Shown: positions 1-40,980 of the stretch, in pieces | Position numbering within the stretch: position 1 is the first letter of the stretch | Layout of the letters: each line of letters opens with the position of its first letter | Assembly (NCBI GenBank): GCA_030267565.1 | Contig: BRXU01000012.1 | Coordinates: forward strand, 42,501 to 106,500 | Direction of reading: 5' to 3' | Length of the DNA: 64,000 bases | Source: Pleodorina starrii | Taxonomy: Eukaryota; Chlorophyta; Chlorophyceae; Chlamydomonadales; Volvocaceae | The notes under the pieces: model-generated | Database searches by the model: none | The model's input: the letters and a program-made list of their open reading frames with translations, nothing else | What the model was told of the DNA's origin: nothing | Made by a program: the position numbers and the translations under genes

Positions 1-3792
<3,792 letters not shown>

Positions 3793-3932
3793 CGACGTCG
3801 CTGTGTGCCGGCCGACATTTCAATTGCGTGCTTGCTGTACCTGTGCCTGTTGGGAAGGCGCTTAGGGTTGCCGCCACCCGTGCATCTCATACCCCCGTTG
3901 TTGGTCTCCGTGCTTGCATCCTCATCCCGCAG

Positions 3933-9086: not shown

Positions 9087-12000
9087 TTATCCGTTGACCA
9101 GTTCCCGAACCATATCATGCTGCAGAGAGAGCAGCTCCTTCGTGACTAGGTGTTGCTCTCCGTACCTCTCCTTGCTGATACGGGTGAGCGCCTCCAACGA
9201 CAGCCCTTTCATGGCCTTTCGTAACCTGCGATGTGCGCAGGGCTGACGGCTCTCTGGCACATCCCACTCCCACCACCTCAACTCAGGCCTGGCCGCGTCG
9301 TACAAGCGCAGGGAGGTCTTGAGGTCATCGCCCTCCTCCTCCTCACTCTCCTCCTCCTCTTCCCCCTCCTCCTGACTCTCCTCCTCCTCCTCCCCCTCCT
9401 CCTCCCCCTCCTCCGCACTCTTCTCCTCCTCCTTCTCCTCACCCTCCTCCTCCTCCTCCCTCTTCTCCTCCTCCTCCTCCTCCTCACCCTTCCTCTTCTC
9501 CTCCTCCTCCTCCTCCTCCCTCTTCCCCTCCTCCTCCTCCTCGCTCTTCTCCTCCTCACTCTTCTCCTCCTCCTCCTCCTCCTCCTCACTCTCATCATCC
9601 TCACCATCATCGGCCGCCGCCCTGCGCTGCGGCCCAACCTTCCAGTCCATGTACCCTCGCCCCAAAAGGAAGAAGGCGTACCTGGTTCCCACCACCATTG
9701 TGAGCAGGTGCTCCGCGCCGTGCACCTGCCTGCCCTGGTGGAGCGCCTGGCGGAACAGCCGGTCGGCAAACTTGCCCATGCGGTCCTGGTCGGCCCTGCG
9801 CGTGTAAGTGTGGAACTCGTCGCCGACAGTGTCCGCCAGGTTGCAGAGGGCGCACAACGTTTCCTCATGGCCCTTGCCGAGGCGCTCGTGCAGGATGTAC
9901 AGGCAGGTTAGGGCTGCGATGGGTTGACTGTGGAGGCTGCTGCTCACGAATTTCTGGCTGCTGCTGCTCTCGCAGAACTTCATCAACCTGCCGAAGCTGT
10001 CTGTGTGGAGTCGGTGCCAGAAGATGAGCTCGGACAGCGTTTGCGCGGCCTCCAGTGGGTCCCAGTCCACCCGCCGCCGCTGCTGCTGGCTCGCATACCC
10101 CTTCAGGAGCTCGAACAGCTTGCCCAAATCCGGCTCACGGTCCTGGATCATCATCTCAGCCAGCCTGCAATGAGTGAAGTGCATGCGTGCGTGGATGAGG
10201 GATGGAGTAGATATATATGATGAGGAGAAGGAAGATGGGGATGAGTTATGGTGATAGGGTGATTTATAATGTTGATTATTATTATTATTAGCCGGCGCTT
10301 TCGTACGCACGTACCTCCACTCCTCCTCCCGCTTGGGCAGCGCCGTAATGTCTTGCAGAAACTTGATCAGGTTGCCCACGAAGCGCCCCTCCGCCAGGCG
10401 CTGCTGCTTGGGTGAGGCCAGCTCCGCCACCTGCTCGCGAACAAGCATGTGCATGACAAAATCCTGACCGCTGGTGCGCTGCAGCACGCTGTACCGGCAC
10501 AGAGCCGTCAGGTAGCTGCGGCTCCCCATCTCCGATTCCCGCAGCACGGCAGTGGCGCTCTGGGCGTCGAACTTGGACGGGAAGACGGCCAGCTTGATCG
10601 CCGCCTGCTGAAGGCTGCGCTCCAGGCTGCCCAGAACCAGCCCCACAGTGGCCTCTGTAGTGTTGCCGCCACCGCCACTACTGCAGCTCCGAGGAGCACT
10701 GTGTGCTTTTACATCCTGCACGCATACATACATATACATACATACGAAGGACGGATGCATATATATGGGGGATGCATATGGGGCATAGATGCATATAAAT
10801 AAAGGATGCACACCTATCGTACCGACCTCCGCACGCACGGCCATCAGACAATCGATCAAGTAAATGTACCGCCAACGAATACCGAAATAGCGCCTGTGGT
10901 TTGACACCCTTTATCTCAGGTGCCACCTTTGAAGGTAGGGGATCGACACATATTATATACGGCGGCCTCGCTGAACGAGCAAGTGGGCGAGTGAGGGCCA
11001 GATAGAGGTCCGTCGTCCGGATGGATGGACGAGCTCACTCAACCTCCAGGCTCCAGCTCAGTCAGCAGGCCGTACACCCTGCTGTTTCACTTCTAGGCAG
11101 CAGCAGGATTGTTGTAGTGAGATACGTAGGTAAATACCTTTGTCTCAGGCCGGCACTGCCCCGGCCACGGTATTTACTACCGTGCTCAGAATCGAATCAG
11201 AACTTAACGTCCAGTCATCGTTCTTTCTGTGAGCAAAGACGGCTTCGAGATTCGTGATTGTCGTACAGATTCTAGAATACTCGTTCAAGAGATATTCTAT
11301 ACTATTCGGAAGGTTCTGTTATCGGTAATTCGATAATCATAATCATATTCAATAATTCGTATAAGTACTGTGTAGCCATCACGCTACAACAGCTGCCTCC
11401 CCCCCCGAGGAACCAGCGTCCGCGCTGTGTTCCGGGTGAGTTTTCCAATATTCGTTCACCAATTCGTCTGGAACGTCCTTCGAATCAAGCCACGTGTTGT
11501 GTTCGTCACCGTAGCCTTGCCACTGTACCAGGAAACGATACAAAGTCCGTCGGCGTAACTTCCGTTCTTCGTGTTTCACAATATTCGAAATAACCCAAAC
11601 GGGTCGGGAAGTTTCACCATCGATTTCCAAAGGCGGAGGTGGATTCGTAGGTCCATTCGACACGTCAGTACGATATGGACGTAGCAGAGACACATGGAAG
11701 ACATCGTGGAATCGATATTCAGGAGGCAACTTCAGTCGAAACGCAACGGGATTGATGCGTTCTGTGATCGTAAAGGGTCCAATGAATTTCGGCATCAATT
11801 TTCGTGTTCCTGCTTGCAAAGAAAGGTTTCGAGTGCTCAACAGGACTTGTTGTCCAACAGAGAGAGTGATTTTTCGACGGTTTCGACTCTCCTGTACCAA
11901 AGCGCGATCTTGAGCAGCTTCGTAAAATCGTTTCGCAAGTTTCAACCGATCGTGTAGTGTATCAACGTAATCTTTCGCGACGGGAACGGCATCACCCAGT

Positions 12001-15000: not shown

Positions 15001-18000
15001 GATTTGTACAGCTGAGTCCCCTCCGGCAGGGTCATAAGTCGTGTCATGCCATGAAGAAGGCTACGAACGTTTCGCAGATCAGCCGGAACAAGGATACACG
15101 CTGAGATGCTCGGATCGAATGCCTTGCAGGTTCGGTAGTGTCGTAAGAAAGACGCGAGAAGATGAACGGGAGGGTTCATCCAGATGGTGTGGCCGGAACA
15201 ATCGAAAGTAAGGAAAGAGCGGGTCGGAGAAGCGAAAACCTTACAAATCGAGTTACTGCCGTCATCGTTGGCAGCGGCGTCCAAGGTAAATGTTCGTCCA
15301 ATGCGCTCCTCAAGCTGCGCAATTAGGTCAAGGTCAATCATGCGCGAGTCGTAATCGGGAGCTAGTTTCGAAACGTGCGACCCAGTACGTCCGCCACACA
15401 AAAACGACTGGGCAACTCCCTACTTCGGCGGATTCTGCGGAATCCCCGGGCACGCGGCCTTAATGTGCTTAGCCTGCTGCCCGCACTTAAAGCATCGTCC
15501 CTGGTCCATCCATTCGAACTTCGCCTTGTTCGTCAAAAACGTTCCGGGAACTAGGGGGTTCGGGACGTTCGACGGTTCGTTGGGCTTCTCTTCCGCCATC
15601 CGAAAGGCCCACTGCATCGCTTTCGACATGACACGCCCAGGCCGCGCCGGAGTCGCCTCGTCAGTGCGCGCCTGGTTCGCAGCGGTCGAGTCGCGGTTGT
15701 GGCCCTGACGGTCCTGTCGAGATCGCTTGTTGACAGCTTCAACCCACGACGAGGTCGATGGTCGTTTGCCGTTGTCGTTGGCGTCCTGTCGGGAGTTTCG
15801 GGAACGTTTCTTAGAACCAGAGGCCGCGTAATGCAAAGAAGCGCGCGACTGGCCCTGGGCCCGTGCCTTAAGCTTCTTTTCTTCGCCAATGGCATAGTCG
15901 ACAAGGTCGGTCAAGTTCGCGAATTCGTTGCCATTGCTATCGACACGGCACTGAGCTTGCAGTTCGCGAATCAGGCCCTTACGAAACATCTTCGCCAAGG
16001 CCTTCGAGTCAGTAAATTTCGCACGGCGAGCGATTTCCCGAAAACGAGCATTGTATTCGGCAACACCCTTCGCCGGATCCATTCGCACTTGACCCTCAAG
16101 CAACTGTTCGAGCGCTTCGTCTTCCTTCGTGCGCACCTTGGGGTCGAAGCGGTTCAGAAAATCGCGGAGGAGTTCGGTCAGATCGAACGGCTTGCCGGAC
16201 TGCTTCTGCTCCCTTCGCCAGTCAGCCAGCCAGTCCTGAGCACCGGGCGGGTACTCCTTCACCGCCGTTCGGAACTGCCAAACGGAATCTTCGAGCTGGT
16301 TCGGAATGAATCGCACAGCCCACTCCTGGAAGTCGTTCACAAAGTTGTCGAGGGATCCGTCCTTCGATGGCTGCGGGGGTTCGTTTTTCAAGTGAGGTCG
16401 CAGTTCAGTCCGGTTCGAAACTCCATTCAAAGCAAAACGATCAGCATCAGAATCGTTTCGAGTGCTTACCGATGGCACTGGGGGTCGCGATCCTGATGCG
16501 CTCGCGTTGGCCAAATCGGCCTGCGCGCGAACCAGTTCGAGTTCGGCCTGCTTCAGCTTCAACTGCGTTTCAGCGAGCTGAATCTGAGCAGCAATATCGG
16601 GGTTCGAAGGTCCAGTCGCCGCCTCGGCGCCGGTCGGAGTCGGAGTCGGCGCGGTCCGAGCAGGCGGCGGCTGCTGCCGTTGCTGCTGTTGCCGCTGTTG
16701 CTGCTGGGCCGTGTTCGCAGGGTTCGAAAGGTTCGTAGGGTTCGTAGGGTTCGTAGGGTTCACGTTGTTCGTGTTGCCATCTACGGGCATAGGATCGTTC
16801 GGCAAAGTGTTCGTCTCTGTCGGGTCGGTCATAGCTGAACGTTAGCGTATTGCAAACCTGAGATGCAGAGTCGCGCGAGTAGCTCGCGGATGAGCACTGC
16901 GTCAGTCAGACGGCTTGCTGGCAAGTCACTCAGCATGAACCACTCTGAACCGAAGCCGTAGCGACCTAACGCGTGGAGCACCGCCGACGACTTGAGACTA
17001 GCAAGTCGTGCGGCTCGTTCGTCTGGTGTAAAGTCGAAGCGAGTCAGTGTTGCTGAGACACCAAAGATGTTGTAGTGAGATACGTAGGTAAATACCTTTG
17101 TCTCAGGCCGGCACTGCCCCGGCCACGGTATTTACTACCGTGCTCAGAATCGAATCAGAACTTAACGTCCAGTCATCGTTCTTTCTGTGAGCAAAGACGG
17201 CTTCGAGATTCGTGATTGTCGTACAGATTCTAGAATACTCGTTCAAGAGATATTCTATACTATTCGGAAGGTTCTGTTATCGGTAATTCGATAATCATAA
17301 TCATATTCAATAATTCGTATAAGTACTGTGTAGCCATCACGCTACAACAAGGATACTTATTTTCCTATATACCGACCGGCCACGCACGCACGCAGGTGAC
17401 TAATAACGAAGCAAATGGATGGTATTTCCTCGCGCGCGCACCTCCAGCGTCAGGCGCCCTGTGGTCACAGCCTCAGCCACCATGCGTAGCACCAGAGGAA
17501 CGCCACGGCACGCCTCGGCCAGCTCCTCGGCCTGCTGCAAAGCCACTTCCCCCAAGATGTCCTTGACCATCAGGGCCGCCGCCGCATCACTGATGCGCTC
17601 GACCTGGTGCACCAGCAGGGGTCCGTCCCACGCAGAGCGCCTGTCGTCGAGGTCCTCGCTGCTGGTGGTGGCCCAGATGTGCTGGCGGGATGTCACCAAC
17701 AGGCGCAAGCCGATCGCCCGTCGAATCAGCTGCGGGAACGAATCATCACGCATCCGGCGGCGGCACACGCGCTCAGTATTGCATGCAGGGAAATGCGTGG
17801 AACGGCAGTGCGGGGTAACCAGCACGCAGCAAAGTACAGTACAGTACAGTGGCCATCCAGTTCATTCTGATCGAAAAACGATTGTCGGTCGCCGGGCTTT
17901 AATCTCGCTCAGCTCACATTCGTTCCGTCTGCTTGCTTATGATCCTTACATATCTAGTGTTAGTGACAACAATGAACACATGACTATGAGTACTTCTACT

Positions 18001-20581
18001 AAAGGGATGGAGCATCAGGAAGTTGAGACAGATGCATGGACTATTGATGAGATGGGACGACAGGAGAATCGCTATCTACCTATCCAGATCTATCTATCTA
18101 TCTACATACCTAGCTAGATCGTGCATGACGATTGCCAAGGCTCTCCTCCAATCATTTTGCACTAAAGTTCCGACGTATGTACGTGTAGCATATTTCACGC
18201 ATGCATACGTTATAAATGTCTCGCTGATGCTTCAGGCAGGTACGCCCGCCCCGTTGCAAACTATGTGATTCCTAACGCTGTATCATGCCTTATATATTAA
18301 TAAGTACCGGCCGTATATATTAATACCGGCCGTATATATTAATACCGGCCGTATATATTAATAAAAGTACCGGCCGGCGATGCATGCATGCCAGTTCGGT
18401 GCATCTTTCATGATATACCCGCCCGGGATGGACTCTACATACATATATACAACGGTCCTTGCCTTGTTGAGAAGGCCTCGCAGCTCCTTCGCCCCACTCT
18501 CCTCTGCGAGTGCGTCCTCCGCATTGTCAATCACCAGTAGCAGAGGGCGGCCAAGCGGGGTTCTGCTGCCATCACTGCCGGTGACACTGCTGCTGCCGCC
18601 ACCGGCAGCAGCAGCATCGGTGCTCTGATGATGAATTGCCATGCAGGCGATGACCGTCTTGATGATTTCGCCGGCGATGTCCTTCCTGTCCTGTAGCACG
18701 CAAAATAATAATGCATGTGTCAAAATAAATACTGTAAAACGAAGCAAACCTGAGTTAAGAAGGCATACATGTGTCGTATATATCTTGCTGTGCAGCCCAA
18801 CACCGACAGGCACCGACAGCGTAAGCTTGCGTACGCGCATTTATTTATTACGTATTATACCTGCTGCTGATCCCGCCGCGCACACAGGCAATGCGTGCAC
18901 GAGCGCTAGGCTGTTGCAGGTATATATCGTACAGCCGCGCGTGCGTACCTCGCTATATACTTTTATTTACACTGGTGGCTGCGGAAAATGGCTGGGCCTG
19001 AGAAGAACGCTGGGCACTATGCAAACGACCTTAACCGCGGTATCGAGTCCTTGGTCAGCCCGGAAACGCACTCGGGATACACGAACGAAACAGATTACAT
19101 GAAATACGTCGCCAACACTCTGCCCGACCTCGACATAAGCACCAGCACTCGGACTCTACAGCGCAAGGCGGGCCGACACAAGCACGTTAAACGGTGCTTC
19201 GACTACCTATACGGCCAGCTATGGAGCGCCAAGCTTGCGAGGCGATTTAAAAAAACCAGTGGCACCTGGCCGCCCTGCGTCGTCGGGACATTGCCCCCTA
19301 TGCAACCAACTCGACTCAGGGGCGCACATCCTCGGAGGCTGCCTTCACCCCCGCATGCGAGCCCTATACATACAGCGGCACAACAAGGCGGTCCAAAACA
19401 TTACCAGTACGCTAGCCCGTGGGTCCAATGGAGGCTGTTACACTGTAATGGACGCCGGCCCCGCGGACACCCAACCAGACTACGTGGCCGGCACACGCCT
19501 GCCCAAATGGCTGCTCCCGAGTATTGAGGATGAGAAACGCCTCAAACTCAGGCCCGATATACTCCTTATACCCGACATCCCCCTCCATGAAACGCAAGCG
19601 CAAGGGTACAAGGGACCTCAGGACCCTAGCCAGCACACCGTACACATTGTTGAGGTCGGCTACACCGCCGACACCAACCACACACAGAAACAGCACGACA
19701 AGGCCGTACAACACGCAGAACTGGCCAAACTCCTCACGGAAGCCGGATGGAAGGTCCGCTACACAACACAGGAAGCCATCAGCCTCGGCTTTGCGGGTAC
19801 TATCAGGAAGGACCTACGCCCTCTACTGCACACCCTAGGCACGGGCAGCAAGGAAGCCCGAGCATGCTGCAACGACCTCCACGACCATGCAGTTAGGACA
19901 CTCAACACTATCGTTATAACCCGCAGACAAATGGAACGCAACCCCCATGCGGAACCGACACCGGCCGGCACGTAACCAACGTGGGACAAGTCTTAAGTTC
20001 CTTGCGGTGGTGGGGGCGGGGGGCTGGGACCGGGGAAACCCGTCACCCCACCCCCTCTGCTCCCATAACCCACGCCTCGGCTACCGGCCGGGCGTATCAT
20101 TATTATTATTATTATATACTTTTATTTTGCAATGCTCTAGAATCGATCCTTTTCTCGTCATTCTACAAACAGCCTGCTGGGCCAGAAGAAAAGGAAACGT
20201 CCGTCTAGCGCGCGTCATTGTGGGCATTCTGTGCGTGAGGCACAGCTGCGTGCGTGTATGTATGTATGTATGTATGTATGTATGTATGTATGCTGATGAA
20301 ATCGATTTTTGCAGTAACACTCGCTCAGAACCAAATTACCAAGCCTTAAGCAAACGCAGCCTACTACCGGTAACCTGAGACATCATTATGCATCATCCCT
20401 TCTTAAGTGCACGGCAGCAGCAGCTAGAGGTGTTTGGGCGCAGACGTTTTCTCCTCCGTCCCCAATAAGTCGATCAATATTGAGTGTTACCATTCAAATA
20501 TATATATACATATATATATACATATATATATATGAATGGTAAATATGGAATGGAAAATATGAATGGTAAAATATTTTACCA

Positions 20582-20623
<42 letters not shown>

Positions 20624-23600
20624 TGGTAAAATATGAATGGTAATATATATATATATATATATATATATAATTGATTATATATATATAATGATGATAAATT
20701 ATTGAGATATTTATACAACTATTATTTTGCATCACCAGCCGCGTGACGTGGCGTACCAGGGCGTACCTATCGAGATACCGAGAGCCGAGCTAATCTGAAT
20801 AATGACAACATTTTATGTCGGAGCATCTCCCAGAGAAATCGCGGTCTTGAAACGAATATGCGGACTTTGCCAGCTTCAATAATAAACCTACTGACACTTC
20901 GTTTTATGCCTTCAACAATAACATTGATGAACTATATGCAAAGGATGGATAAAGGGACCTAGCTAGCTCCTTGGTTCGTGTGTGGCCACCCCGCCCGCTA
21001 CCCACCTTGCCCTCCGCAAGCTTCACGCCCAGCGCAGCGCAGAAGCGCGCCTTCACATCCTCTGCGGTGCTCGCCTCGCGCAGGTCGACCCACCGCACGC
21101 CCGCCGGCACCTTACCCGCCTCCACTAAGCGCCGGCCAACGTCGGTCGCCAGCGTTGACTTTCCCATTCCGCCCTCCGCCAGCAGCAGCATTGCCTGACG
21201 GCGGATCATGACCCTCTCAACCACAGCCCTGGCATCCTTGTCCCGGCCGGTGTAGTTGCTGGGTAGCTCTGGCAGTTGCACGCGCCCTGTCAACATGACA
21301 GCTGCTGAGCCCATACCGCCATGAACCAGCTTCTCGACCTGTTCTAGCAGCGGCTCGTTTTGGGTGAAGGCCTGCCTGAGCTCCCAAACGCTCACTTTGC
21401 CATCCTTGCCGGTCTCCGCGCACAAGGCACGTTGGAACCTGTTGCGCTCCACCGACCCGGGTGACAGCAACCGGCAGAGCCGCTCCACAGAGGCGTGGTC
21501 AGCTGTGATCCGTGACAGCTTTTCGGGGAAGGACTCCCAGAACACGGTCCAGGGCACCTCGTAAAGCTGCCGGTACTCGGTTCTCCACAGCAGCTGCAGG
21601 TCAGCTTGTACAATGTAACGCTGCGGGCCCTCATCCTTCTGCGAGCCCAGCTCTGCTTTGACCTGCTCCAATAAAGCGGTCACCTGAAGACAGCCGGCGA
21701 GCGAGGGCGGCGGGGTGTACGTATGCGTGCGTGTTAGTCGACGCTGCGTGCTGCTGTGGCATCCGCGGTCATTAAGCGAGCGAGCCTTTGCTGGTTACAT
21801 ACAGCGTGGCAGTGCGGGTGCGTGCGTGTACACGCCGTCGAGTACAAATATTAAAGTAAGCGCCAATAAATAATAATGATGCATGGATGCACACAAGCAA
21901 TACGTGTTTTGTAAAAAGACAGCTAGCTAGCTATGTCGCAACTGGATGTCGTCTTATATATGTATTTTAATTAAGGAGGAGAAGAACCAAAAACACGATA
22001 GATGTACATACCGGTAACGAAAGCAAGGCTTCGCTACTTCGCAACTAACTATATCTAACGACTTTTATATACGTCTATAGTGGTTCATTGCATATCTGTA
22101 AGTAAGACTTCGTATTTAGCTGTCACATACAGGAAAAATCTACCATCATGTAATACGGTTATTAGCTAGGTGCATGAAGTAACAGCAGCAGTACACTCTG
22201 GGAAAGGATTTTCTCCGTAATGGTATTTTTCTCCGTAATGTGCAGTTTGGACGCCGTAACCTTCAATTTGCCTAATTTACGGAGTTTGGGGAGCCAGCCA
22301 AAGCACATACCATGTTTGTGCAAGTATTCAATACATAGCATTCTTGTAGATACTCAGAAGTACGTATGAAAGATACATAGCGCAGGCACAGCCCATCACT
22401 TTCCATGTACAACTTTTCCGTAAACTTCAGTTCCCCGCCGACTTTACGGGGTTCTTAGCAGCCAGCATATTCGCCATACCCTGTTTCCGCAAGTATAGTT
22501 ATACAGATCAATATAGGATATGGTCAGGATAGCGTACGAGGAATATGTAGTGCAGGCACAGCCCTTGTGTACACTTTTCCAATAAAGGGCAGTTCACCGG
22601 CTTCATCTTAAAAGGCATGAGTAATGTTGAGCCGGCCCTGGATGAACCCATTTCCGCATCACACGGGTAAGGCGTGCGCTGTCACAGTTTCCGGGTTGCG
22701 GGCTGTTGTTTGGGGTCAGTGCCAGAACCGCCGCGCTTGTTGTGCCGAGTATCCCATTAGAAACACAGCCGGCAGACTCCGGAACGCACGGGTGCTGCGG
22801 GCGTGGAGAGCAGCGGCTGCACGGGTGGTTGCAGCGCTGAGCCGGCCCTGGATGAACCCATTTCCGCATCACACGGGTAAGGCGCGCGCTGTCACAGTTT
22901 CCGGGGTGCGGGCTGTTGTTTGGGGTCAGTGCCAGAACCGCCGCGCTTGTTGTGCCGAGTATCCCATTAGAAACACAGCCGGCAGACTCCGGAACGCACG
23001 GGTGCTGCGGGCGTGGAGAGCAGCGGCTGCACGGGTGGTTGCAGCGCTGAGCCGGCCCTGGATGAACCCATTTCCGCATCACAGGGGTAAGGCGCGCGCT
23101 GTCACAGTTTCCGGGGTGCGGGCTGTTGTTTGGGGTCAGTGCCAGAACCGCCGCGCTTGTTGTGCCGAGTATCCCATTAGAAACACAGCCGGCAGACTCC
23201 GGAACGCACGGGTGCTGCGGGCGTGGAGAGCAGCGGCTGCACGGGAGGTTGCAGCGCTGAGCCGGCCCTGGATGAACCCATTTCCGCATCACACGGGTAA
23301 GGCGCGCGCTGTCACAGTTTCCAGGGTGCGGGCTGTTGTTTGGGGTCAGTGCCAGAACCGCCGCGCTTGTTGTGCCGAGTATCCCATTAGAAACACAGCC
23401 GGCAGACTCCGGAACGCACGGGTGCTGCGGGCACGGAGAGCAGCGGCTGCACGGGAGGTTGCAGCGCTGAGCCGGCCCTGGATGAACCCATTTCCGCATC
23501 ACACGGGTAAGGCGCGCGCTGTCACAGTTTCCGGGGTGCGGGCTGTTGTTTGGGGTCAGTGCCAGAACCGCCGCGCTTGTTGTGCCGAGTATCCCATTAG

Positions 23601-26600
23601 AAACACAGCCGGCAGACTCCGGAACGCACGGGTGCTGCGGGCACAGAGAGCAGCGGCTGCACGGGAGGTTGCAGCGCTGAGCCGGCCCTGGATGAACCCA
23701 TTTCCGCATCACACGGGTAAGGCGCGCGCTGTCACAATTTCCGGGGTGCGGGCTGTTGTTTGGGGTCAGTGCCAGAACCGCCGCGCTTGTTGTGCCGAGT
23801 ATCCCATTAGAAACACAGCCGGCAGACTCCGGAACGCACGGGTGCTGCGGGCGTGGAGAGCAGCGGCTGCACGGGAGGTTGCAGCGCTGAGCCGGCCCTG
23901 GATGAACCCATTTCCGCATCACACGGGTAAGGCGCGCGCTGTCACAGTTTCCGGGGTGCGGGCTGTTGTTTGGGGTCAGTGCCAGAACCGCCGCGCTTGT
24001 TGTGCCGAGTATCCCATTAGAAACACAGCCGGCAGACTCCGGAACGCACGGGTGCTGCGGGCGTGGAGAGCAGCGGCTGCACGGGTGGTTGCAGCGCTGA
24101 GCCGGCCCTGGATGAACCCATTTCCGCATCACACGGGTAAGGCGCGCGCTGTCACAGTTTCCGGGGTGCGGGCTGTTGTTTGGGGTCAGTGCCAGAACCG
24201 CCGCGCTTGTTGTGCCGAGTATCCCATTAGAAACACAGCCGGCAGACTCCGGAACGCACGGGTGCTGTGGGCGTGGAGAGCAGCGGCTGCACGGGAGGTT
24301 GCAGCGCTGAGCCGGCCCTGGATGAACCCATTTCCGCATCACACGGGTAAGGCGCGCGCTGTCACAGTTTCCGGGGTGCGGGCTGTTGTTTGGGGTCAGT
24401 GCCAGAACCGCCGCGCTTGTTGTGCCGAGTATCCCATTAGAAACACAGCCGGCAGACTCCGGAACGCACGGGTGCTGCGGGCGTGGAGAGCAGCGGCTGC
24501 ACGGGAGGTTGCAGCGCTGAGCCGGCCCTGGATGAACCCATTTCCGCATCACAGGGGTAAGGCGCGCGCTTTCACAGTTTCCAGGGTGGGGGAAGTTGTT
24601 TGGGGTCAGTGCCAGCACAGCCGCGCTTGTTGTGCCGAGTATCCCATCAGACACACAGCCGGCAGACTCCGGAACGCACGGGTGCTGCGGGCGTGGAGAG
24701 CAGCGGCTGCACGGGAGGTTGCAGCGCTGAGCCGGCCCTGGATGAACCCATTTCCGCATCACAGGGGTAAGGCGCACGCTTTCACAGGGTGCGGGCTGTT
24801 GTTTGGGGTCAGTGCCAGAACCGCCGCGCTTGTTGTGCCGAGTATCCCATTAGAAAAACAGCCACCTATCTCCGGCCCCGAGCCCCTGCCTCCCACGTCA
24901 GGCCCCGAGATTGGTAAATCAGTCTCCGGCCCCGGCCCCCTTGCACCCATGTCCGGCCCCTAGCCCCTGCCGCCTGTGCCCAGCCCCGAGCTCCTTGAAC
25001 CAATCTCCGGCCACCAGTTGCAGCCACCCATCTACAGCCCCCAGCCCCTGCCTCCCATCGGCCCCGAGCTCCTTGAATCAGATCAATCTCCCGCCCCGAG
25101 CTCCTTGCACCAATTTCCAGCCCCCGAGGTCCTGCCACCAATCTCCCGCCCCAAGCCTCAGCCACTCATGGGCCCCCCGAGCCCCTGCCACCTATTTCCG
25201 GTCCCCGTTCTCCTTGCACATCTCCAGCCCCGAGCCTCTGCCACCAATGTCCGGCCCCGTGCACACGCATTACACTCATGTTCCCATGGCCCAAGTGTTC
25301 AATTCCAACCCCCGCCCCCGCCCCATGAGCCCCGGGCCCGAGTTCCCAGACAGCCGTCACCCAAGCCCAGGCCCCAGCTCGAGCTCCCAGTCCCCACCCC
25401 CAGCCACCCCCAGACGCCAAAGCCCAGCCCTCCAGCTTTAGGCCAAGTGTCCAAGGATCAGCTCCAGCCTCAATGCCTAACTGTGTTAGCCCCAGCCCCC
25501 AAACAAAAGCCTTGAAGCCTCAGACCCTAGCCCCAGCCCCATAGCCTTATGAGCCAGTCTGCCCCGGGCGGAAAGGGAAGAAAGACAGGGTGCGTGGGGG
25601 CCTTGGGGCACTTGGGGTATGGCTGACAGCTGTGCTGTCGCAGTTCTATTGCAACGCAATAATGCAAGAATTTGCTTATTGAGATTCGGGACCGTAAACA
25701 TTACAACAAATGACGACTAGCGTCATTTTTCGTTGGGATGCATGCAGGCATGCACCGACAAAACGCCGCAGGAAGGCCTTGCGCACCACATTAACGCCAA
25801 TGACGGTAAGAATTTGCGTTGTAAAGGTGTCCTTTCAAGTGTGAATGGCTTAGAAGAGCGAGCAGCGAGGAGCCCGATGTCAGCCGGCAGACTCCGGAAC
25901 GCACGGGTGCTGCGGGCGTGGAGAGCAGCGGCTGCACGGGTGGTTGCAGCGCTGAGCCGGCCCTGGATGAACCCATTTCCGCATCACACGGGTAAGGCGC
26001 GCGCTGTCACAGTTTCCGGGGTGCGGGCTGTTGTTTGGGGTCAGTGCCAGAACCGCCGCGCTTGTTGTGCCGAGTATCCCATTAGAAACACAGCCGGCAG
26101 ACTCCGGAACGCACGGGTGATGCGGGCGTGGAGAGCAGCGGCTGCACGGGAGGTTGCAGCGCTGAGCCGGCCCTGGATGAACCCATTTCCGCATCACACG
26201 GGTAAGGCGCGCGCTGTCACAGTTTCCGGGGTGCGGGCTGTTGTTTGGGGTCAGTGCCAGAACCGCCGCGCTTGTTGTGCCGAGTATCCCATTAGAAACA
26301 CAGCCGGCAGACTCCGGAACGCACGGGTGCTGCGGGCGTGGAGAGCAGCGGCTGAACGGGAGGTTGCAGCGCTGAGCCGGCCCTGGATGAACCCATTTCC
26401 GCATCACACGGGTAAGGCGCGCGCTGTCACAGTTTCCAGGGTGGGGGAAGTTGTTTGGGGTCAGTGCCAGCACAGCCGCGCTTGTTGTGCCGAGTATCCC
26501 ATCAGACACACAGCCGGCAGACTCCGGAACGCACGGGTGCTGCGGGCGTGGAGAGCAGCGGCTGCACGGGAGGTTGCAGCGCTGAGCCGGCCCTGGATGA

Positions 26601-29600
26601 ACCCATTTCCGCATCACAGGGGTAAGGCGCACGCTTTCACAGGGTGCGGGCTGTTGTTTGGGGTCAGTGCCAGAACCGCCGCGCTTGTTGTGCCGAGTAT
26701 CCCATTAGAAAAACAGCCACCTATCTCCGGCCCCGAGCCCCTGCCTCCCACGTCAGGCCCCGAGATTGGTAAATCAGTCTCCGGCCCCGGCCCCCTTGCA
26801 CCCATGTCCGGCCCCTAGCCCCTGCCGCCTGTGCCCAGCCCCGAGCTCCTTGAACCAATCTCCGGCCACCAGTTGCAGCCACCCATCTACAGCCCCCAGC
26901 CCCTGCCTCCCATCGGCCCCGAGCTCCTTGAATCAGATCAATCTCCCGCCCCGAGCTCCTTGCACCAATTTCCAGCCCCCGAGGTCCTGCCACCAATCTC
27001 CCGCCCCAAGCCTCAGCCACTCATGGGCCCCCCGAGCCCCTGCCACCTATTTCCGGTCCCGTTCTCCTTGCACATCTCCAGCCCCGAGCCTCTGCCACCA
27101 ATGTCCGGCCCCGTGCGCACGCATGTTCCCATGGCCCAAGTGTTCAATTCCAACCCCCGCCCCCGCCCCATGAGCCCCGGGCCCGAGTTCCCAGACAGCC
27201 GTCACCCAAGCCCAGGCCCCAGCTCGAGCTCCCAGTCCCCACCCCCAGCCACCCCCAGACGCCAAAGCCCAGCCCTCCAGCTTTAGGCCAAGTGTCCAAG
27301 GATCAGCTCCAGCCTCAATGCCTAACTGTGTTAGCCCCAGCCCCCAAACAAAAGCCTTGAAGCCTCAGACCCTAGCCCCAGCCCCATAGCCTTATGAGCC
27401 AGTCTGCCCCGGGCGGAAAGGGAAGAAAGACAGGGTGCGTGGGGGCCTTGGGGCACTTGGGGTATGGCTGACAGCTGTGCTGTCGCAGTTCTATTGCGAC
27501 GCAATAATGCAAGAATTTGCTTATTGAGATTCGGGACCGTAAACATTACAACAAATGACGACTAGCGTCATTTTTCGTCGGGATGCATGCAGGCATGCAC
27601 CGACAAAACGCCGCAGGAAGGCCTTGCGCACCACATTAACGCCAATGAAGGTAAGAATTTGCGTTGTAAAGGTGTCCTTTCAAGTGTTAATGGCTTAGAA
27701 GAGCGAGCAGCGAGGAGCCCGATGTCAGTACGGAAACCAATGACCGTTCCACTATACGCGTTGCTGGCATATACGCTTTCCTTCTACATTCAATATATAC
27801 ATAGCATAATAAATAGACATTGGGAATAGCGCACTACTTTCGCCCTTGCCTATACGCTTATTCTTGACTGCCGATAGCAAAAGTCAAAGCAACACGAGCG
27901 CTTCAATAAGTTCAAGATTTGCTCGCAGGGTTGCCACAGGTAACTGATAACCATGTGACAAAAGCTTCGGAAATTATCAGACTCAACGACAAGGTCCCGC
28001 TGTTCGCCGAGTACCAATCGACATTGTGGGCAGTCGCTTCCACGCCGGAACTTTGGCAAGGGACCGATTCCAGGAGCGAAACATGTAAGGATAACAGTCT
28101 TAATAACTGACGCCAATGGTCTTCAACAGCTGTGTAGCTAAGCGTTTTCCGTCCCTAATGTAATCAACCCATTGCCCTTACACAACGCAGTTCAGCACGG
28201 AGTGCACGGAGATGGAGCTAACGGCTTTGGAGTGAACACGTGGATGGACTAGCCTTGGAGTGGACTTGGAGCTAGCGGCCGGGAGTAGCTGTGCTGGGGG
28301 AGCTATCATGGACATGGACTAGCGGGCAGGAGCAAGACCAGCAGCATGTCTGCGGCCTCCCAAGTAAGTAGGGTAGGGGTTACCGTGGGCTTCAGACCGC
28401 AAAACGGGAGATCCAGCGGGCCAGCTGGCCGTGTACTGCAGCGGAGACACGAGGACAAGGGAAAGACCAACCAGCACAGACAGCACGAGCCACCCAGACA
28501 CTAAAAAGCGAACCTAGGGGAAAAGCGCAAAGACGAGCGACCACGGGGCGCGTATCTCTACCCGTCTGGCACAGTCCGGCCCGTTGTTGCCCAGTGTATG
28601 GACGGGGCTGCAGCGGTCTGAATTATCCGTCTGGCCCAGGCCGACCTGAACTAGCTAAACCCAATTCCTAGCTAGGTGAAAAGGGATCTTGTCACTGATC
28701 ACTGAAAACTTTGCCACCTACGTACCAAGTGGTTGTCTACTTGAGAGGATTCATTCAGTCACGTATTCGGTGGTTTTCACTACCATCGTACTGGATATAC
28801 CTCTCGGGGTCTGGATCCGCGGCGGCGCAGTTTACGGTTTCCGTAATATACGGTTTATCTTCCGTAATATACGGTTTGTCTTCCGTAATATACGGTTTGT
28901 CTTCCGTAATATACGGTTCACATTCCGTAATATGCGGTTTACATTCCGTAAAGACCCTCCGTAGACTCTCCGTAATGAAGTTTTGGGGTTGCCGGCGTCT
29001 CCGTAAACTACAGTTTATATTCCGTAAAATACTCTCCGTAGGGTCTCCGTAGGGTCTCCGTAATGTACGTTGTCATATTACGGAGACCCTACGGAGACAC
29101 TTTACGGAGAACCATCCTCCGTAAAGTGAGGTTACTTTACGGAGAATAGGCACCTCATTTTACGGAGTCTAGACCCCCCCCTTTTCCCAGATATCTATCT
29201 ATATATCGACATGCATACACAGTATATACACATCTCTCTCTACATACACCTATACACATATATGTATCTTATTTTTATATCTTGTATATCTATATTTCGA
29301 TATATAGATATCTGTATTACAGGGGTTGATTGATCCATACATACATGACTGACGCACCAGCTCGACAGTCAGCCGCGCCCCCGGTTCGAGCTTATCGATG
29401 ACCTTGTTGAAGAGCTGCTCATCGTCGAGCACCTTGTCCATGCCACCCAGCTCCCGTACCGTTTGCATGGCGGCAGGTTCCTGCGCATATGCATTTGCGT
29501 GGCGCCCAAGCCATTCAGCAGCACGCACGCACGCAGCAGCAGCGGCGTCCATCTATCCGTATTGGACTCGATCAAAATTGGCATCAGCAGCACGTACTGT

Positions 29601-32071
29601 TTCACATATCCACTGAACATACATGAGGAAGGGCGGCGGGTGGCACATACAGGAACTGGGGGCCTTGCTGACGGACCTCTGCGAGCACCAAAACTACATG
29701 GACTGATGAGCGGCCTTCCGAGCCCCTGCTACATACAGGAGATGCTGCTAATGCGTGCAATCGAACTCATTGTCCACGAAATTACCAGCAGCAGCTATTT
29801 AATCAATCAAGCCCTGCCACACATCGATTGACACAGACGATTCATTTGGCGGGAGCCACCGTGCGTGTTACGGGAGGTGCATGGTGGCGTGAATGAAGGA
29901 CTGCAGGCGACAGGCATGCCTGCGTGCAAGGCTCGCTCGCCTGTCTGTAATGTGCACCATTCATCATCACTACTAATGACGCATGCATTCTCTGGCGCTG
30001 GGGGCCCCTCACTGCTGTAAACCAGCCATTCATCCCGCCCATGCATACATGCACAGCAGCTCCACGTAAGCACCTGCCTTGTATTTCGTCTCCATATTCA
30101 GCTCATCCAGTGCCTTCAATATGTCCTGCTTCGCCTGCTCCTGCCCATTTAGGATCGAGCGGCCCTGCCCCACCACCAGTGAGTGCGTGTCCGCCACCAC
30201 GGCTAGCAGGAGGGCGCAGTGAAGCGAGTTGAACTTGTCCTTCAGCGCTTCGAATTGCGCCTTGTCCGTGGCCGTTGTAATAAACCGCATCACGATATTT
30301 CGATTGCCGAAGGACTTGGCGTATTTATCGAACTCCTGAAATTTATTTAAACAGAAATAATTAATTAATTAGAACACATACACATACACATACATACATG
30401 CGTGTACACATACACACATACACCAGATACACCATCCACATTAACACATACACGTACGTGCACATACACATATATACACGCACGTTGTATATATTACCAG
30501 CTATATATACGTATACACATGGCGGCATTAACCAACCTGGAGGAACCTGGTGAAGTCGGTTATGATATGTTTGTACTTGATGGTCTCCAGCGAGGTATGG
30601 TACGTTTCGATCAGCGCCATGAACACCGCGGCACGCTTTGTTAGCGTCTGCAGGTTATCCTTGTTGTCGGCTACACCTTCAATAGTCTTCAGGACCGCTA
30701 GCAGCCCCGACACAGCTTGGGAGCCTGCGGTCATCATCATCATACATAAGTAGTCGGCAGGCGCTGCAAGCCTGGCTGCTGCATGTTGCCCGCGCGCAGC
30801 AATCCCTTGCTTGCTTGTTTGCTTGGCAATGGCTGGAAAGCAATACCTACCCTTGCCCGTGAAAGGGCGGGCCCAGACACCCGCCGTGTGTGCGTGCTGC
30901 TACTAATTACCTATAATTTCGTTGCGCCCGTGGCCACTCCTTCGGCGGGGCGGGTTTATTGTGTGAACAACATGCATGCCCTATCTATTTATAGCTAGAA
31001 CTACTACTCACTATCCAGCTTTCCACCCCGCCCCGGCGGCGGGCGGGGTTACCCCCACTTTTAATGCCATGTAAAAGATAGATGGGGATGGTGACGCACA
31101 CCATATACATATATGGTTTCTTTATTACTATGTGTCGGTGGAAATATATGTATGCTATATACACACACTTGCCGGGTGAAGGCAAGACGCCAGACAGCTT
31201 CTCCAGCCAGTCAGTGGTGTTCGTGAGGCAGTCTCGCGCCAGTTGCTGCGTGCGTGCAGCAATCGTCATGCACGCATGATGGACGCGCGGATGGAGATAG
31301 GGCATTACGTAAAACACGTTCGAAGTGCAGGCAGGCACGCATGGGGACACGGCAAGCAGTGCTGGGTCCAGCAGGCATGTCATCCCGCCCGGCACAACAA
31401 GACCAGCCATCCTGCCGCGCGTACAATACCATACCACGCACCCAAGCCAGTCACATGGAATTGCCTCTGCGTGCGTGCATGCAAGAGTCAGACGGAGGTA
31501 GCAGCATGCAACACTCTCGCTCCCGCCCAATAGAACGTGATAACATGCATGCAAGCATCGACGCAGGAAGCAGGCTGGCACGGCAAACATACATCTGTCG
31601 CGCCAACGTACGTCGGTATAGTATACCGACTGAACTCTACGTAATAAGCTGTATGTACGTCGGTATGGGAATACGCACCCTGAACAAAGCAGCTCGCTCG
31701 CTTACCGCCCAAGTTCTGCGGCCATTTGGCGACGGCAGCAACGACGGCGGCGGCTCATCAGATGGATTATTACATGGGTTGCTTGCCAACGCCAGTGGTG
31801 GTGACTGAGGTGGCAACGACAGCGGCTGGTGGGCTGGAGCTGCTGGCTGCTGGTCGTCGCTTATCCCAGCAGCAGCAGGCTGCGATTGCACGGCGGGTGG
31901 CGACTGCTGAGGGCTACCAGGCGTCTGGTTGTTTCTCCCTGACTGCTGCGGCAGCGACCGATTGGGAGCAGAACCAGAGGGCAACTGCGGAGGTGGCGAC
32001 GAGGAAGCGTCATCAGGTGGAGGAACCCCTGATCCTCCACTTCTTACGCAGCGTGCCATCAGGGCTCCCAT
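9087..32071 (-). CDS. NLR/STAND receptor: MLKL_NTD-like bundle, NB-ARC, helical repeats
   Basis: Proposed exons (5'>3'): 32071-31706, 31245-31173, 30724-30537, 30335-30074, 29693-29651, 29612-29525, 29480-29358, 21683-21006, 18690-18454, 17771-17442, 10715-10315, 10164-9087. All phases agree, giving ~1288 aa. Residues 1-122 are Pro/Gln/Ser-rich. Residues ~123-296 follow the MLKL_NTD/HeLo pattern (LPSPG, then [19 protein letters not shown], later [11 protein letters not shown]). Exon 8 has an EF-hand-like stretch ([15 protein letters not shown]) and Walker A GGMGKST (~552). Exon 9 has Walker [11 protein letters not shown]; exon 10 RNBS-B LLVTSR and a GLPL-like CRGVPLVL; exon 11 the winged-helix LAVFPSKF and an MHD-position MHM. 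The last exon has TPR-like helices, a long Glu tract and a short basic C-terminus. The role inferred is an ATP-switched intracellular immune or cell-death receptor. Weak points: exon 6 end (29525), exon 9 donor (GTTGTA at 18453 or GCAAGG at 18462) and the alternative exon-10 start at 17729. Confidence 0.75.
9330..9600 (-). repeat. Coding GAG/GAA triplet tract (acidic region of the NLR)
   Basis: About 270 bp of CTC/CTT triplets on the + strand, read on the minus strand as Glu with interspersed Lys, Ser, Gly and Arg. It stays in the NLR frame and is followed by a normal-looking C-terminal 80 residues ending RELVNG, so it is coding and probably variable in length. The opposite-strand Leu-rich frame (9231-9911) is a shadow. 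Confidence 0.85.
11110..11391 (-). repeat. LTR (3' LTR of the chromovirus)
   Basis: 282 bp, bounded by TGTTG...CAACA inverted ends and identical to the copy at 17068-17349. Because the element lies on the minus strand, this is the downstream LTR. The last codons and stop of pol (TGA at 11381-11379) lie inside it. Confidence 0.97.
11379..15419 (-). CDS. pol: Chromovirus Pol: Dam-like domain, PR, RT, RNase H, integrase, chromodomain
   Basis: Open from the codon after the gag TAG to TGA at 11379, ~1346 codons, with no ATG in the first ~25 codons. Residue numbers count from 15401. Residues 30-110 have an adenine-methyltransferase (Dam-like) look: [21 protein letters not shown]. Protease has DTGATHCF (~191). 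RT has [20 protein letters not shown] and YLDD. RNase H has [13 protein letters not shown] and [10 protein letters not shown]. Integrase has an HHCC zinc site (CDTCQRT), a D,D-35-E-like core ([28 protein letters not shown]), then a GPFTI module and a chromodomain ([18 protein letters not shown]). Expression is presumably as Gag-Pol by UAG readthrough. No frameshift or internal stop is seen, so the element looks competent. Confidence 0.94.
11392..11406 (-). promoter_or_regulatory. Polypurine tract
   Basis: Minus-strand purine-rich run (eight G, then AGGCAGC) immediately before the 3' LTR, the expected plus-strand primer site. It is simultaneously coding, specifying the end of pol (...GGEAAVVA). 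Confidence 0.65.
15420..16832 (-). CDS. gag: Chromovirus Gag
   Basis: 470 aa starting at ATG 16832. An N-terminal Asn-Pro-Thr/Gln-rich stretch is followed by a coiled segment ([18 protein letters not shown]) and the retrotransposon gag core, with W-rich helices and the [17 protein letters not shown] and YNARF signatures typical of Ty3 Gag. The C-terminus has a zinc knuckle read as [15 protein letters not shown], spacing C-X2-C-X5-H-X4-C, one residue longer than the usual X4 before His. Gag forms the cytoplasmic particle and packages element RNA. The frame ends at TAG (15422-15420) and is collinear with pol. Confidence 0.93.
   Translation of the reverse strand: MTDPTETNTLPNDPMPVDGNTNNVNPTNPTNPTNLSNPANTAQQQQRQQQQRQQPPPARTAPTPTPTGAEAATGPSNPDIAAQIQLAETQLKLKQAELELVRAQADLANASASGSRPPVPSVSTRNDSDADRFALNGVSNRTELRPHLKNEPPQPSKDGSLDNFVNDFQEWAVRFIPNQLEDSVWQFRTAVKEYPPGAQDWLADWRREQKQSGKPFDLTELLRDFLNRFDPKVRTKEDEALEQLLEGQVRMDPAKGVAEYNARFREIARRAKFTDSKALAKMFRKGLIRELQAQCRVDSNGNEFANLTDLVDYAIGEEKKLKARAQGQSRASLHYAASGSKKRSRNSRQDANDNGKRPSTSSWVEAVNKRSRQDRQGHNRDSTAANQARTDEATPARPGRVMSKAMQWAFRMAEEKPNEPSNVPNPLVPGTFLTNKAKFEWMDQGRCFKCGQQAKHIKAACPGIPQNPPK
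17047..17063 (-). promoter_or_regulatory. Candidate tRNA primer-binding site
   Basis: Minus-strand TGGTGTCTCAGCAACAC begins four bases inside the 5' LTR. It starts with TGG, the complement of tRNA CCA ends. The tRNA identity cannot be assigned without the genome's tRNA set. Confidence 0.55.
17068..17349 (-). repeat. LTR (5' LTR of the chromovirus)
   Basis: 282 bp, identical to 11110-11391; followed on its outer side by the TSD AGGAT at 17350-17354. It should contain the promoter of the element. About 235 bp of leader separates it from the gag ATG at 16832. Confidence 0.97.
18303..18372. repeat. CCGGCCGTATATATTAATA short tandem repeat
   Basis: About 3.5 copies of a 19-bp unit with a palindromic CCGGCCG core and an AT-rich half, in an NLR intron close to the exon 9 donor. 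Confidence 0.85.
18969..20112 (+). mobile_element. 5'-truncated non-LTR retrotransposon copy
   Basis: A 1144-bp insert antisense to the NLR gene, in its intron between exons 8 and 9. It is bounded by a perfect 15-bp target duplication TATATACTTTTATTT (18954-18968 and 20113-20127), and its 3' end is an ATT microsatellite (about 20099-20112), as expected for target-primed reverse transcription. Only the C-terminal part of the ORF survives. It is dead: RT is missing and the frame is broken. Confidence 0.92.
18988..19975 (+). pseudogene. Non-LTR ORF remnant: zinc finger plus restriction-like endonuclease
   Basis: Frame 18988 to about 19250 ([14 protein letters not shown]...) continues after a one-base shift in an A-run (about 19249-19255) in the frame that ends TAA at 19975. 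The C-terminal part has a C-C-H-C finger ([17 protein letters not shown]), then a PD-(D/E)XK-type pattern: LRPDILLIP, a spacer, [11 protein letters not shown] and [12 protein letters not shown]. That order is the one found at the C-terminus of restriction-like-endonuclease (RLE) non-LTR elements, whose enzyme nicks the target DNA. Family assignment within RLE elements is not possible without the RT. Confidence 0.72.
20251..20292. repeat. GTAT microsatellite
   Basis: About ten copies of GTAT just beyond the non-LTR copy, in the NLR intron. Confidence 0.9.
20489..20700. repeat. AT-rich array with TACCATTC/GAATGGTA inverted repeats
   Basis: TA dinucleotide runs separated by TACCATTC and its complement GAATGGTA in alternating orientation, able to fold into several nested hairpins. 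Intronic (NLR). Confidence 0.85.
22210..22455. repeat. Left CTCCGTAA/TTACGGAG cluster
   Basis: TTTTCTCCGTAATGG, TTTCTCCGTAATGTG, GCCGTAAC, TTTACGGAGTTTGGGG and, further in, TTCCGTAAAC and CTTTACGGGG. The 8-mer occurs in both orientations, mirroring the cluster at 28842-29167. Confidence 0.75.
22624..24856. repeat. 210-bp satellite array, about 10.6 units
   Basis: The word GCCGGCCCTGG recurs at 22631, 22841, 23051 and every 210 bp to 24731. Units are nearly identical, with single-base variants (acgggtggtt/acgggaggtt; gcgtgg/gcacgg/gcacag). The last unit is truncated and fuses to a different sequence. Because 210 is divisible by three, both strands stay open for more than 720 codons; I treat these frames as by-products. 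Each unit contains GGGTAAGG, a latent splice-donor-like word. Confidence 0.97.
24857..25880. repeat. Pro-rich-looking GC segment plus unique tail, copy 1
   Basis: Irregular repeats of CCGGCCCCGAGCCCCTGCC-type words (24860-25440), then a less repetitive tail with a palindrome GACGACTAGCGTC (about 25710) and TGCATGCAGGCATGCA (25738-25753). The whole segment recurs at 26712-27735 with a few indels (for example an extra TACACTCATG-like stretch near 25271 in this copy). Confidence 0.9.
25881..26711. repeat. 210-bp satellite array, second block, about 4 units
   Basis: GCCGGCCCTGG at 25956, 26166, 26376 and 26586; same unit as the first array. The last unit shows the same truncation and fusion point as copy 1, so block and tail were duplicated together by about 1.85 kb. 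Confidence 0.96.
26712..27735. repeat. Pro-rich-looking GC segment plus tail, copy 2
   Basis: Near-identical duplicate of 24857-25880; after 27735 the copies diverge. Offsets of 1855 bp before and 1845 bp after the indel show a single segmental duplication. Confidence 0.93.
28842..29167. repeat. 21-bp TCCGTAATATACGG tandem repeats and right TTACGGAG cluster
   Basis: About five 21-bp units each with the near-palindrome CCGTAATATACGG (28847-28955), followed by CTCCGTAGGG words and then, in inverted orientation, TTACGGAGACCC and TTTACGGAGAA words to 29167. The cluster can form a large stem. Confidence 0.88.
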
Positions 32072-39860: not shown

Positions 39861-40980
39861 AGAGTCCAGCGCACTACCGACATACCGGTAATCCTACAAC
39901 GTTTTTAGGTGTCCAAGCGACCGACGTCGCAAACGATTCGCCTTCCTTTCCGCCAGCCTTACGGCCGCCCGCCCCTTCGAAGACGCGCAAGTGGGCCCAC
40001 ACCCGGCAGCGCGATCGCCGCCGATTCATTATTTAATCTGTTGACCCGCGCTGCCGCACTGATTGCGCGCGGCTCCATCCGGTGGTTTGCAAATGAAACC
40101 CCGCTGCGTGCAAAACATGGCCCCGCCAATTGTGGCGCCGCCAGGGCGCCCGCGGGTCTTGAGGTTCGACGCGTCCCCCCCCGCATTCATGACATTCAGC
40201 CTCTGCTGATTCCCGCTGGCCTGTATACGTGCAGGCGTTGCTGCGTCAGTCAGCTGACGAGCTGAGGAAACCCCAATCAAGGAAGAGGTGGCTCAGCAGA
40301 GTAGCTGGTAGTCCGGCAGGTTCACGACGGTGGGGGGCATGGAGGGCGTTGGTTGCTACAACTGGTGTAGTCGTTACAGTGGGCTCCAGAACCTCGCAGC
40401 AGTAGAGCCAGCGGGCCGGCGGGGGGCCATGTAATAATTGCCCTGGAGACGGCCAGGGCAGAATAGCAAAGCGCACCAAGCAATCACCAAGACCAGACAG
40501 CAGACGTCGCCTGGGCAAGAATAAGCGTATACAGAACAAGAAACAAGTAGAGGACAAGAATGAACGTTTCTGAGCCCTAAGCCCGGGGTGAAGGCTCCGA
40601 AACCCGTGGCCACAGGAGGCATTAGCCTACAGCCATGAGGCTCTCCCAAATTGGCGACCGACCCCACCCCACCCCCCACCCCCCACACACGCACACACGC
40701 ACACACACAAGCAGGCGCACCAGTATAACTGAGAGCAGCTCGTGCGCTGCTCATGGACAGGTGGACCCTGTATGTCCTGGACATCGTCCCAGTGACAAAC
40801 CAGGGCGCGAATCGGCGTCTGGATTATTGGCGTTGCCGATGACGGCGCTCTGCCTGCCGATCAGCTGCCGACCAGCAGCGTGGGAATGAGGGATTGAGGG
40901 CCTTAGGGTTTTTGTGCATTCCATACCTTCAGGCCTTTTGTGCCACTGCTGCAGCGCGCTTCACGCACACCAGGCGCCTT
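39861..40980. other. Spacer, nothing supported
   Basis: Short frames only. 40370-40560 shares AGCGGGCC-containing words with 28410-28500, suggesting an old dispersed repeat. CA-rich run at 40680-40715. Confidence 0.5.

Follow-up and report, generated by a model that had tools for sequence, protein, structure and literature searches.

Analysis of a 64,000-nucleotide stretch from the volvocine green alga Pleodorina starrii (the window; contig C12, positions 42501-106500, in an assembly of 136,057,477 bases and 95 contigs) uncovered a minus-strand gene that probably codes for a receptor of the class of signal transduction ATPases with numerous domains (STAND) and nucleotide-binding leucine-rich repeat receptors (NLRs). 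It belongs to a volvocine family in which an extra helix is followed by an MLKL-like four-helix bundle, a Cbl-type EF-hand-like module, an NB-ARC unit (nucleotide-binding domain, helical domain 1 and winged helix) and a superhelix of tetratricopeptide repeats (TPRs); in some members an MGC start and a SAM-like region stand before the extra helix. These domains, their order, the relatives and the intact reading frame were all calculated from the sequence. Both the receptor class and the effector superfamily are known; their combination and the lineage in which it occurs are apparently new. The genome of the bisexual strain NIES-4479 is given as 136.1 Mbp in 95 contigs (PMC10256686; here and below, statements on published work cover the portions of the cited papers available to us).

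Gene structure

Joining of open frames at splice sites, from position 32071 down to 9087, gives ten exons that read through 1227 stop-free codons, with exons 2-4 corresponding to residues 123-300 of the model:

31706..32071, minus strand: putative exon 1, Pro/Gln-rich, 122 aa, doubtful; open frame with a GT donor
31173..31245, minus strand: exon 2, extra helix that precedes the bundle, with LPSPG at its end; aligns with LA.KGL..EKLGPSLPFPG of the relatives
30537..30724, minus strand: exon 3, encoding helices 1 and 2 of the MLKL-like bundle of four helices; included in the MLKL_N match, paralog piece at L015 1509-1706
30078..30335, minus strand: exon 4, the other helices of the bundle, where the likeness to animal MLKL is greatest; MLKL_N at E 0.021 for the open frame alone
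29358..29480, minus strand: exon 5, linker helices between the bundle and the EF-like module; aligns with YQDPAAAARELVSELGG of the relatives, paralog piece at L015 3996-4118
21006..21683, minus strand: exon 6, Cbl-type EF-hand-like module, then the NB-ARC P-loop (GGMGKST); family profile, AAA and NB-ARC matches, 61% identical paralog
18463..18690, minus strand: exon 7, Walker B; from the sequence
17442..17729, minus strand: exon 8, LLVTSR and CRGVPLVL motifs, helical domain 1; NB-ARC weak alone, above the cut-off when joined
10315..10715, minus strand: exon 9, winged-helix domain with MHM motif; aligns with relatives and with L015 8612-9019
9087..10164, minus strand: exon 10, helical linker, then eroded TPR, an acidic stretch of low complexity and the stop; TPR_12 at E 0.0068, BLAST matches to TPRs of relatives

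An initial annotation of the window had proposed a single NLR gene with an MLKL/HeLo-like N-terminus. The helical segments that it had assigned to exons 2-4 were located at 31245-31173, within 30724-30537 and within 30335-30078 (the K..F..L...L segment) on the minus strand. Its single gene stands for exons 2-9 and the start of exon 10, but not for exon 1, which lacks support from homology. Judged by sequence comparison, the former act as one gene, because they are collinear with single annotated proteins and because the neighbouring paralog keeps the exon order. In BLAST alignments, residues 16-890 of the model are collinear with positions 138-933 of the relative P0002 and residues 124-1020 with positions 66-908 of P0017, each one single annotated protein, and residues 124-1049 are collinear with P0016. 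An exon 2-like stretch (..ALEILAPALPAPG) is also present in the paralog locus L015, downstream of base 361. The model requires GC-AG splicing at three introns, namely those after exons 2, 4 and 7, and two of these three joins are backed by alignment with relatives (one reads LPSPG/SQAV; the other aligns with YQ/DPAAAAREL..LGG). In place of exon 1, the true start of the protein could be an in-frame ATG near 31269, immediately ahead of the extra helix.

The MLKL-like bundle

The joined exons 2-4 score 28.1 bits against the Pfam family MLKL_N (PF22215), above the cut-off of 27 by a margin of 1.1 bits (E 1.6e-6), with V-ATPase_H_C a distant runner-up (E 0.015); the MLKL-like N-terminus of the initial annotation is thus recovered. 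In an alignment of the window bundle with 13 sequences from relatives (A2, 14 rows), MLKL_N is found in 10 rows at E <= 0.1 and FUSC in three (best E 0.0057). Used as a profile against the PDB, the same alignment retrieved 16 sequences at E <= 10, the top seven of which are all MLKL (4.1e-7 to 1.3e-4), followed in eighth place by an unrelated protein at E 0.071. Family-profile matches to MLKL fall mostly within the exon 4 segment. The four-helix-bundle fold that had been anticipated is likewise seen in the predicted structure of a relative, in which the bundle comprises four helices, with a short one set between helices three and four and another helix besides, and whose best structural match in the PDB is MLKL.

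The kinship with fungal HeLo and plant RPW8 domains that had been suggested alongside did not materialize: HeLo (PF14479) is matched by one of the 14 A2 rows, at E 0.097, the window row not being included, and RPW8 by none at E <= 0.1. The kinship of the bundle is therefore with MLKL. Unlike in animal MLKL, NB-ARC rather than the pseudokinase follows the bundle, as no kinase family was recovered in the pieces of the model or in five relatives (P0008 and P0015-P0018). In whole-protein scans, MLKL_N matches are weaker (P0003, 0.0028; P0016, 4.5e-5; P0017, 0.0097; P0018, 0.019; P0008, 0.024), and the whole-protein Pfam scan of P0015 gave none. Pfam scans of the six-frame translated genome are uninformative, because introns split the domains: PF22215 gave three sub-threshold matches, one of them in the family member on contig C9, and PF02761 gave none, with none in its 14 controls as well.

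The extra helix was also considered as a strongly cationic, membrane-inserting first helix, an idea that we rejected: its hydrophobic moments in eight sequences are 0.42-0.59, ranking 5-20 among 147-157 windows and forming the top window in none, and the copy in the window has a net charge of -1.

The EF-hand-like module

The Cbl-type EF-hand module encoded by exons 5-6, which the initial annotation had left unnamed, is the more unusual part of the front end. When an alignment of the window module with 12 sequences of relatives (A3, 13 rows) was run as a profile against the PDB, all 31 sequences returned at E <= 10 were CBL or CBL-B, at weak E-values (0.044 to 0.16); these count as about one observation, because they are near-copies of two proteins. 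The core matched to the Cbl sequence is ADL..LWR..Y....VPW..FW. Cbl_N2 (PF02761), the Pfam family of the EF-hand-like domain of Cbl, is matched by four of the 13 rows (best E 0.005), the window row not being among them; the latter matches only EF-hand_6, at E 0.13.

In Cbl, the TKB domain consists of the four-helix (4H), EF-hand-like and SH2-like modules, and these modules bind partners. Residues 51-259 of c-Cbl align structurally over positions 26-325 of the model of a relative, albeit with a different domain orientation (root-mean-square deviation about 18 A). The canonical features of the second EF loop number three of five in the window gene and five of five in P0018, and one or two of five in the other 11 of the 13 rows; in view of the latter, calcium binding is not claimed as a trait of the family. 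Given this Cbl-like position and the canonical calcium loops that are mostly missing, the plainest role of the module is a structural one: by analogy with Cbl, it is most likely a rigid coupler between the bundle and the switch, and mostly not a calcium sensor.

The NB-ARC switch and the C-terminal repeats

As the initial annotation had it, NB-ARC follows the bundle: the joined model scores 28.1 bits against a cut-off of 23.5, which places the protein in the NLR/STAND class. The P-loop, Walker B and a winged helix with an MHM (MHD-like) motif are all present in the window gene; MHD and GLPL are used here as motif names. The predicted model of a relative matches NRC2, NRC1 and Apaf-1. Scans of 14 relatives at E <= 0.01 found TPR_12 in 13, nSTAND1 in seven and NB-ARC in four. 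The TPR-like repeats that had been proposed are seen in most of these relatives, and P0003 and P0016 have fuller TPRs than the window copy, in which they are mostly eroded and whose C-terminal part also contains an acidic stretch of about 100 residues.

A volvocine family

Three protein searches yielded 23 proteins, 18 from the first two and five, of 204-310 aa, from the third; the named relatives are from Tetrabaena, Edaphochlamys, Pleodorina, Gonium, Volvox and Chlamydomonas schloesseri. Two are annotated proteins of P. starrii itself: pieces of P0016 (PLESTB_000816200) match contig C9 at up to 100%, and several exons of P0003 match C22 at 100%. A search of the P. starrii genome with exon 6 found at least 12 places on six contigs, and at least about eight family genes can be counted including that in the window: two on C12, one each on C9, C22, C3 and C30, and two on C61 in opposite orientation. 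The latter two (L019, C61:82500-92400) are seemingly near-identical, and long open frames span their ATPase and TPR parts.

The second gene on C12, at position 109400 on the opposite strand, is 61% identical to the window gene in exon 6 and has the same exon order. Over 658 codons this pair gives a ratio of nonsynonymous to synonymous substitution rates (dN/dS) of 0.58 by NG86 and 0.24 by YN00; judged from these sequences the pair is under constraint, mild by NG86. The C12 pair joins in the family tree at 98/96 and Gonium P0010 adjoins it at 80/93, in a tree that is poorly resolved overall, with 4 of its 17 inner branches starred.

Three of the 18 proteins, P0003, P0004 and P0016, begin with MGC; in P0001, whose record is partial, an MGCS lies internally. 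An MGC start is an acylation signal and fits membrane attachment. The SAM-like region before the bundle was aligned from seven of the 18 proteins (A4): one of the seven rows matches SAM_2, weakly (E 0.063), and the profile found no SAM among its two PDB matches. Volvox carteri P0023 is named SAM domain-containing in UniRef, yet gives no Pfam SAM match at E <= 0.1. A comparable first exon was sought for the window gene; when the seven SAM-like regions were compared with the window by tblastn, all matches were weak, the best (E 0.008) lying on the opposite strand, and a motif scan of its minus strand found one MGCG, at 50468, with no SAM-like stretch after it.

Further architectural variants were observed. 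In Tetrabaena P0001 (1547 aa) the bundle and EF module occur twice in tandem before one NB-ARC. Edaphochlamys P0015 (2408 aa) has an N-terminal Lipase_3 domain (E 6.3e-26), followed by the bundle, EF module, STAND and TPR, which could reflect either a gene-model fusion or a true lipase-armed receptor; the lipase domain was left out of account in the interpretation. Searches for relatives beyond the algae gave 20 pattern matches in bacterial and archaeal genomes and 26 in viral contigs, of which none was confirmed; with a single peptide pattern behind the first scan and two behind the second, they show little.

Proposed mode of action

With an effector bundle, a switch and sensor repeats, the protein has the layout of an NLR. 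Apaf-1, plant coiled-coil (CC) NLRs and MLKL provide the mechanistic basis for the scheme we propose, in which sensing, switching, membrane action and cell death are inferred. In the resting state the ADP-bound NB-ARC and the TPRs would keep the bundle closed. Binding of a ligand or partner by the TPRs would then allow nucleotide exchange and oligomerisation, whereupon the bundles would gather at the membrane and either permeabilise it or open a cation channel, as plant CC domains and the bundle of MLKL do. In those members that have it, the MGC start would put the receptor at the membrane in advance, and the targets detected might be microbes, viruses or non-self algae. Membrane disruption, which the initial annotation had likewise attributed to the bundle, may be expected from these analogies.

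Alternative interpretations

Several observations weigh against the reading of the locus as a receptor with an MLKL-like executioner. The Pro/Gln-rich exon 1 is doubtful, as no convincing homologous segment was found for it. MLKL_N is not among the 25 commonest families at E <= 0.01 in the 14 relatives scanned, and those relatives for which MLKL_N bits were reported all score under the curated cut-off. A control profile of eight reversed rows recovered two designed helical proteins at 1.2e-4, and the Foldseek E-values for the predicted model are weak. The repeats of the window gene are strongly reduced, to one weak TPR_12 match (E 0.0068). Moreover, these eroded TPRs, the failure to find an MGC/SAM exon and a retroelement with identical long terminal repeats (LTRs) in intron 8 make the family a firmer object of study than the window gene, which may be on its way out. 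The following elements lie in its introns:

11110..17349, minus strand: LTR retroelement in intron 8, on the strand of the gene, with LTRs at 11110-11391 and 17068-17349; 282-base direct repeat at 100% identity, gag-like and pol-like frames
22628-24863 (10.7 copies) and 25881-26718 (4.0 copies), no strand: 210-bp satellite in two arrays in intron 5; Tandem Repeats Finder

Hence, the window copy may be a specialised or a decaying member. That it is a decaying or neofunctionalised paralog and no working receptor, in a family that is itself real, is possible if somewhat unlikely. Besides the eroded TPRs, the acidic insertion, the failed search for a first exon and the arrays and retroelement in the introns, the three GC donors would fit such a fate, as would the fact that no identical annotated protein was found for the gene among matches whose length is 0.55-1.75 times that of the query (936 aa). 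However, its ten exons remain free of stops over all 1227 codons, the P-loop, Walker B and MHM motif are retained, dN/dS is below 1 over the 658 codons compared, even if the value of one method is mild, and one of the GC donors is common to the paralog, which has it at the same place after exon 7 (after LLxK).

A second alternative is that the front end is a Cbl-like adaptor on an NLR chassis, in which the bundle and EF module recruit partners upon clustering, with no membrane attack. The bundle-then-EF order is indeed that of the Cbl TKB domain, as in the structural alignment with c-Cbl, whose modules are partner-binding ones, and plant NLRs annotated as Cbl-N type exist (PMC11218826). Nevertheless, we deem this unlikely, as the sequence of the bundle points to MLKL: Cbl_N is missing from the 11 families that the bundle rows match, and the 16 PDB sequences found with the bundle profile include no Cbl. 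Further, the Pfam scans of the model pieces and of the five relatives listed above show neither SH2-like nor RING domains, the marks of the Cbl family, and the MGC start of three members fits membrane attachment.

Finally, the view of the bundle as a generic helical domain with convergent likeness to MLKL, for which the reversed-row matches, the weak Foldseek values and the FUSC matches in three of the 14 rows might speak, is very improbable, given that the forward profile is topped by a single family with a best E about 300-fold better than that of the control (14 versus eight rows), that MLKL appears in neither control search (none among five PDB matches; MLKL_N in none of eight rows), and that sequence and structure agree on MLKL. 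As helical composition alone can yield 1e-4, the case for MLKL rests on the value of 4e-7 and on one family filling the top ranks. The preferred reading thus remains that of a volvocine STAND/NLR-type receptor with the scheme of sensing, switching and membrane action set out above.

Other features of the window

The satellite arrays in intron 5 open long, probably spurious frames on both strands. The intron 8 retroelement, which by eye we take to be of the Ty3/Gypsy type, is probably a recent insertion, and intron 6 holds, on the strand opposite to the gene, an open frame (19139-19975, plus strand) that by eye resembles part of a retroelement protein. At positions 1-3793 the 24-bp unit CTGCCTGTCTGTCTGTCTGTCTGT is repeated 158 times in tandem, and the first 2000 bases of this array contain no A on the plus strand (AT skew -1.000). 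At 40900-41900 there is a simple repeat of about 1 kb whose frames read SFLP or GRKE. An open frame at 52866-53660 on the plus strand contains VVIDEAAQAVEPSTLVPLV, presumably a Sen1/Upf1-type helicase motif, and probably belongs to another gene. According to the genome paper, the sex-determining region is on 'bisexual contig_12' (PMC10256686); if that numbering corresponds to C12, the receptor pair would lie near one end of the sex-chromosome contig.

Comparison with known systems

Among green algae, NB-ARC proteins, some with TPRs, have been described: NB-TPR proteins in Klebsormidium (Andolfo 2019, PMC7145615, where the available text makes no mention of Volvox, Gonium, Tetrabaena or Chlamydomonas), TIR-NLRs in the chlorophyte Chromochloris (PMC10952240), and, in Ulva, one NB-ARC protein with tetratricopeptides and one with leucine-rich repeats (PMC8891106). 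The volvocine proteins resemble these in their chassis; in contrast, no MLKL-like bundle is described for any of them in those portions of the sources. In the open literature available to us, subscription papers and bioRxiv preprints lying outside its scope, we found neither a chlorophyte NLR described with an MLKL-like bundle nor any NLR reported to carry the EF module of Cbl.

Closer parallels come from the front end. The Cbl-N type NLRs of non-flowering land plants also bear a four-helix bundle, annotated as Cbl-N kin (Chia 2024, PMC11218826), whereas no EF module is described for them in the accessible text, and that survey covers land plants and two streptophyte algae, with chlorophytes going unmentioned in the same text. 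The basidiomycete BaMLKL NLRs carry an MLKL_NTD bundle on a STAND receptor; one extra helix stands at the N-terminus of the bundle, and a short one separates helices 3 and 4 (PMC9815663, Wojciechowski 2022). Like these and the fungal HeLo-like and Goodbye-like NLRs, the algal proteins have an MLKL-like bundle N-terminal to a STAND ATPase (PMC9815663), and the model of an algal relative also displays both the extra helix (H5-26) and the short one between helices 3 and 4 (H108-114). The algal family differs in belonging to another kingdom and in its Cbl-type EF module, Cbl going unmentioned in the main text of that paper.

With animal MLKL the algal bundle shares its sequence and the predicted fold of a relative, but it lacks the pseudokinase and is instead mounted on NB-ARC-TPR. 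With the Cbl TKB domain it shares the order of bundle and EF-hand-like module; in contrast to Cbl, the sequence of its bundle is nearer to MLKL, the orientation is different, no SH2-like or RING family is listed and NB-ARC follows. If the bundle kills, NLR-controlled cell death of the MLKL type would extend beyond land plants, fungi and animals to chlorophytes, and to the volvocines, the model group for the origin of multicellularity, with the tractable Chlamydomonas and Volvox. A wider scenario, tentative and rather unlikely to hold in full, is that the bundle and EF module constitute an ancient eukaryotic effector cassette on NB-ARC receptors, of which the animal MLKL executioner and the Cbl 4H-EF unit would be offshoots, and which the volvocine algae would have kept whole, tethered to membranes by acylation and the SAM-like region, for necroptosis-like defence or self-recognition. 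In any event, the joined MLKL-like and Cbl-like modules offer a concrete lead on the kinship of two animal domains of like fold.
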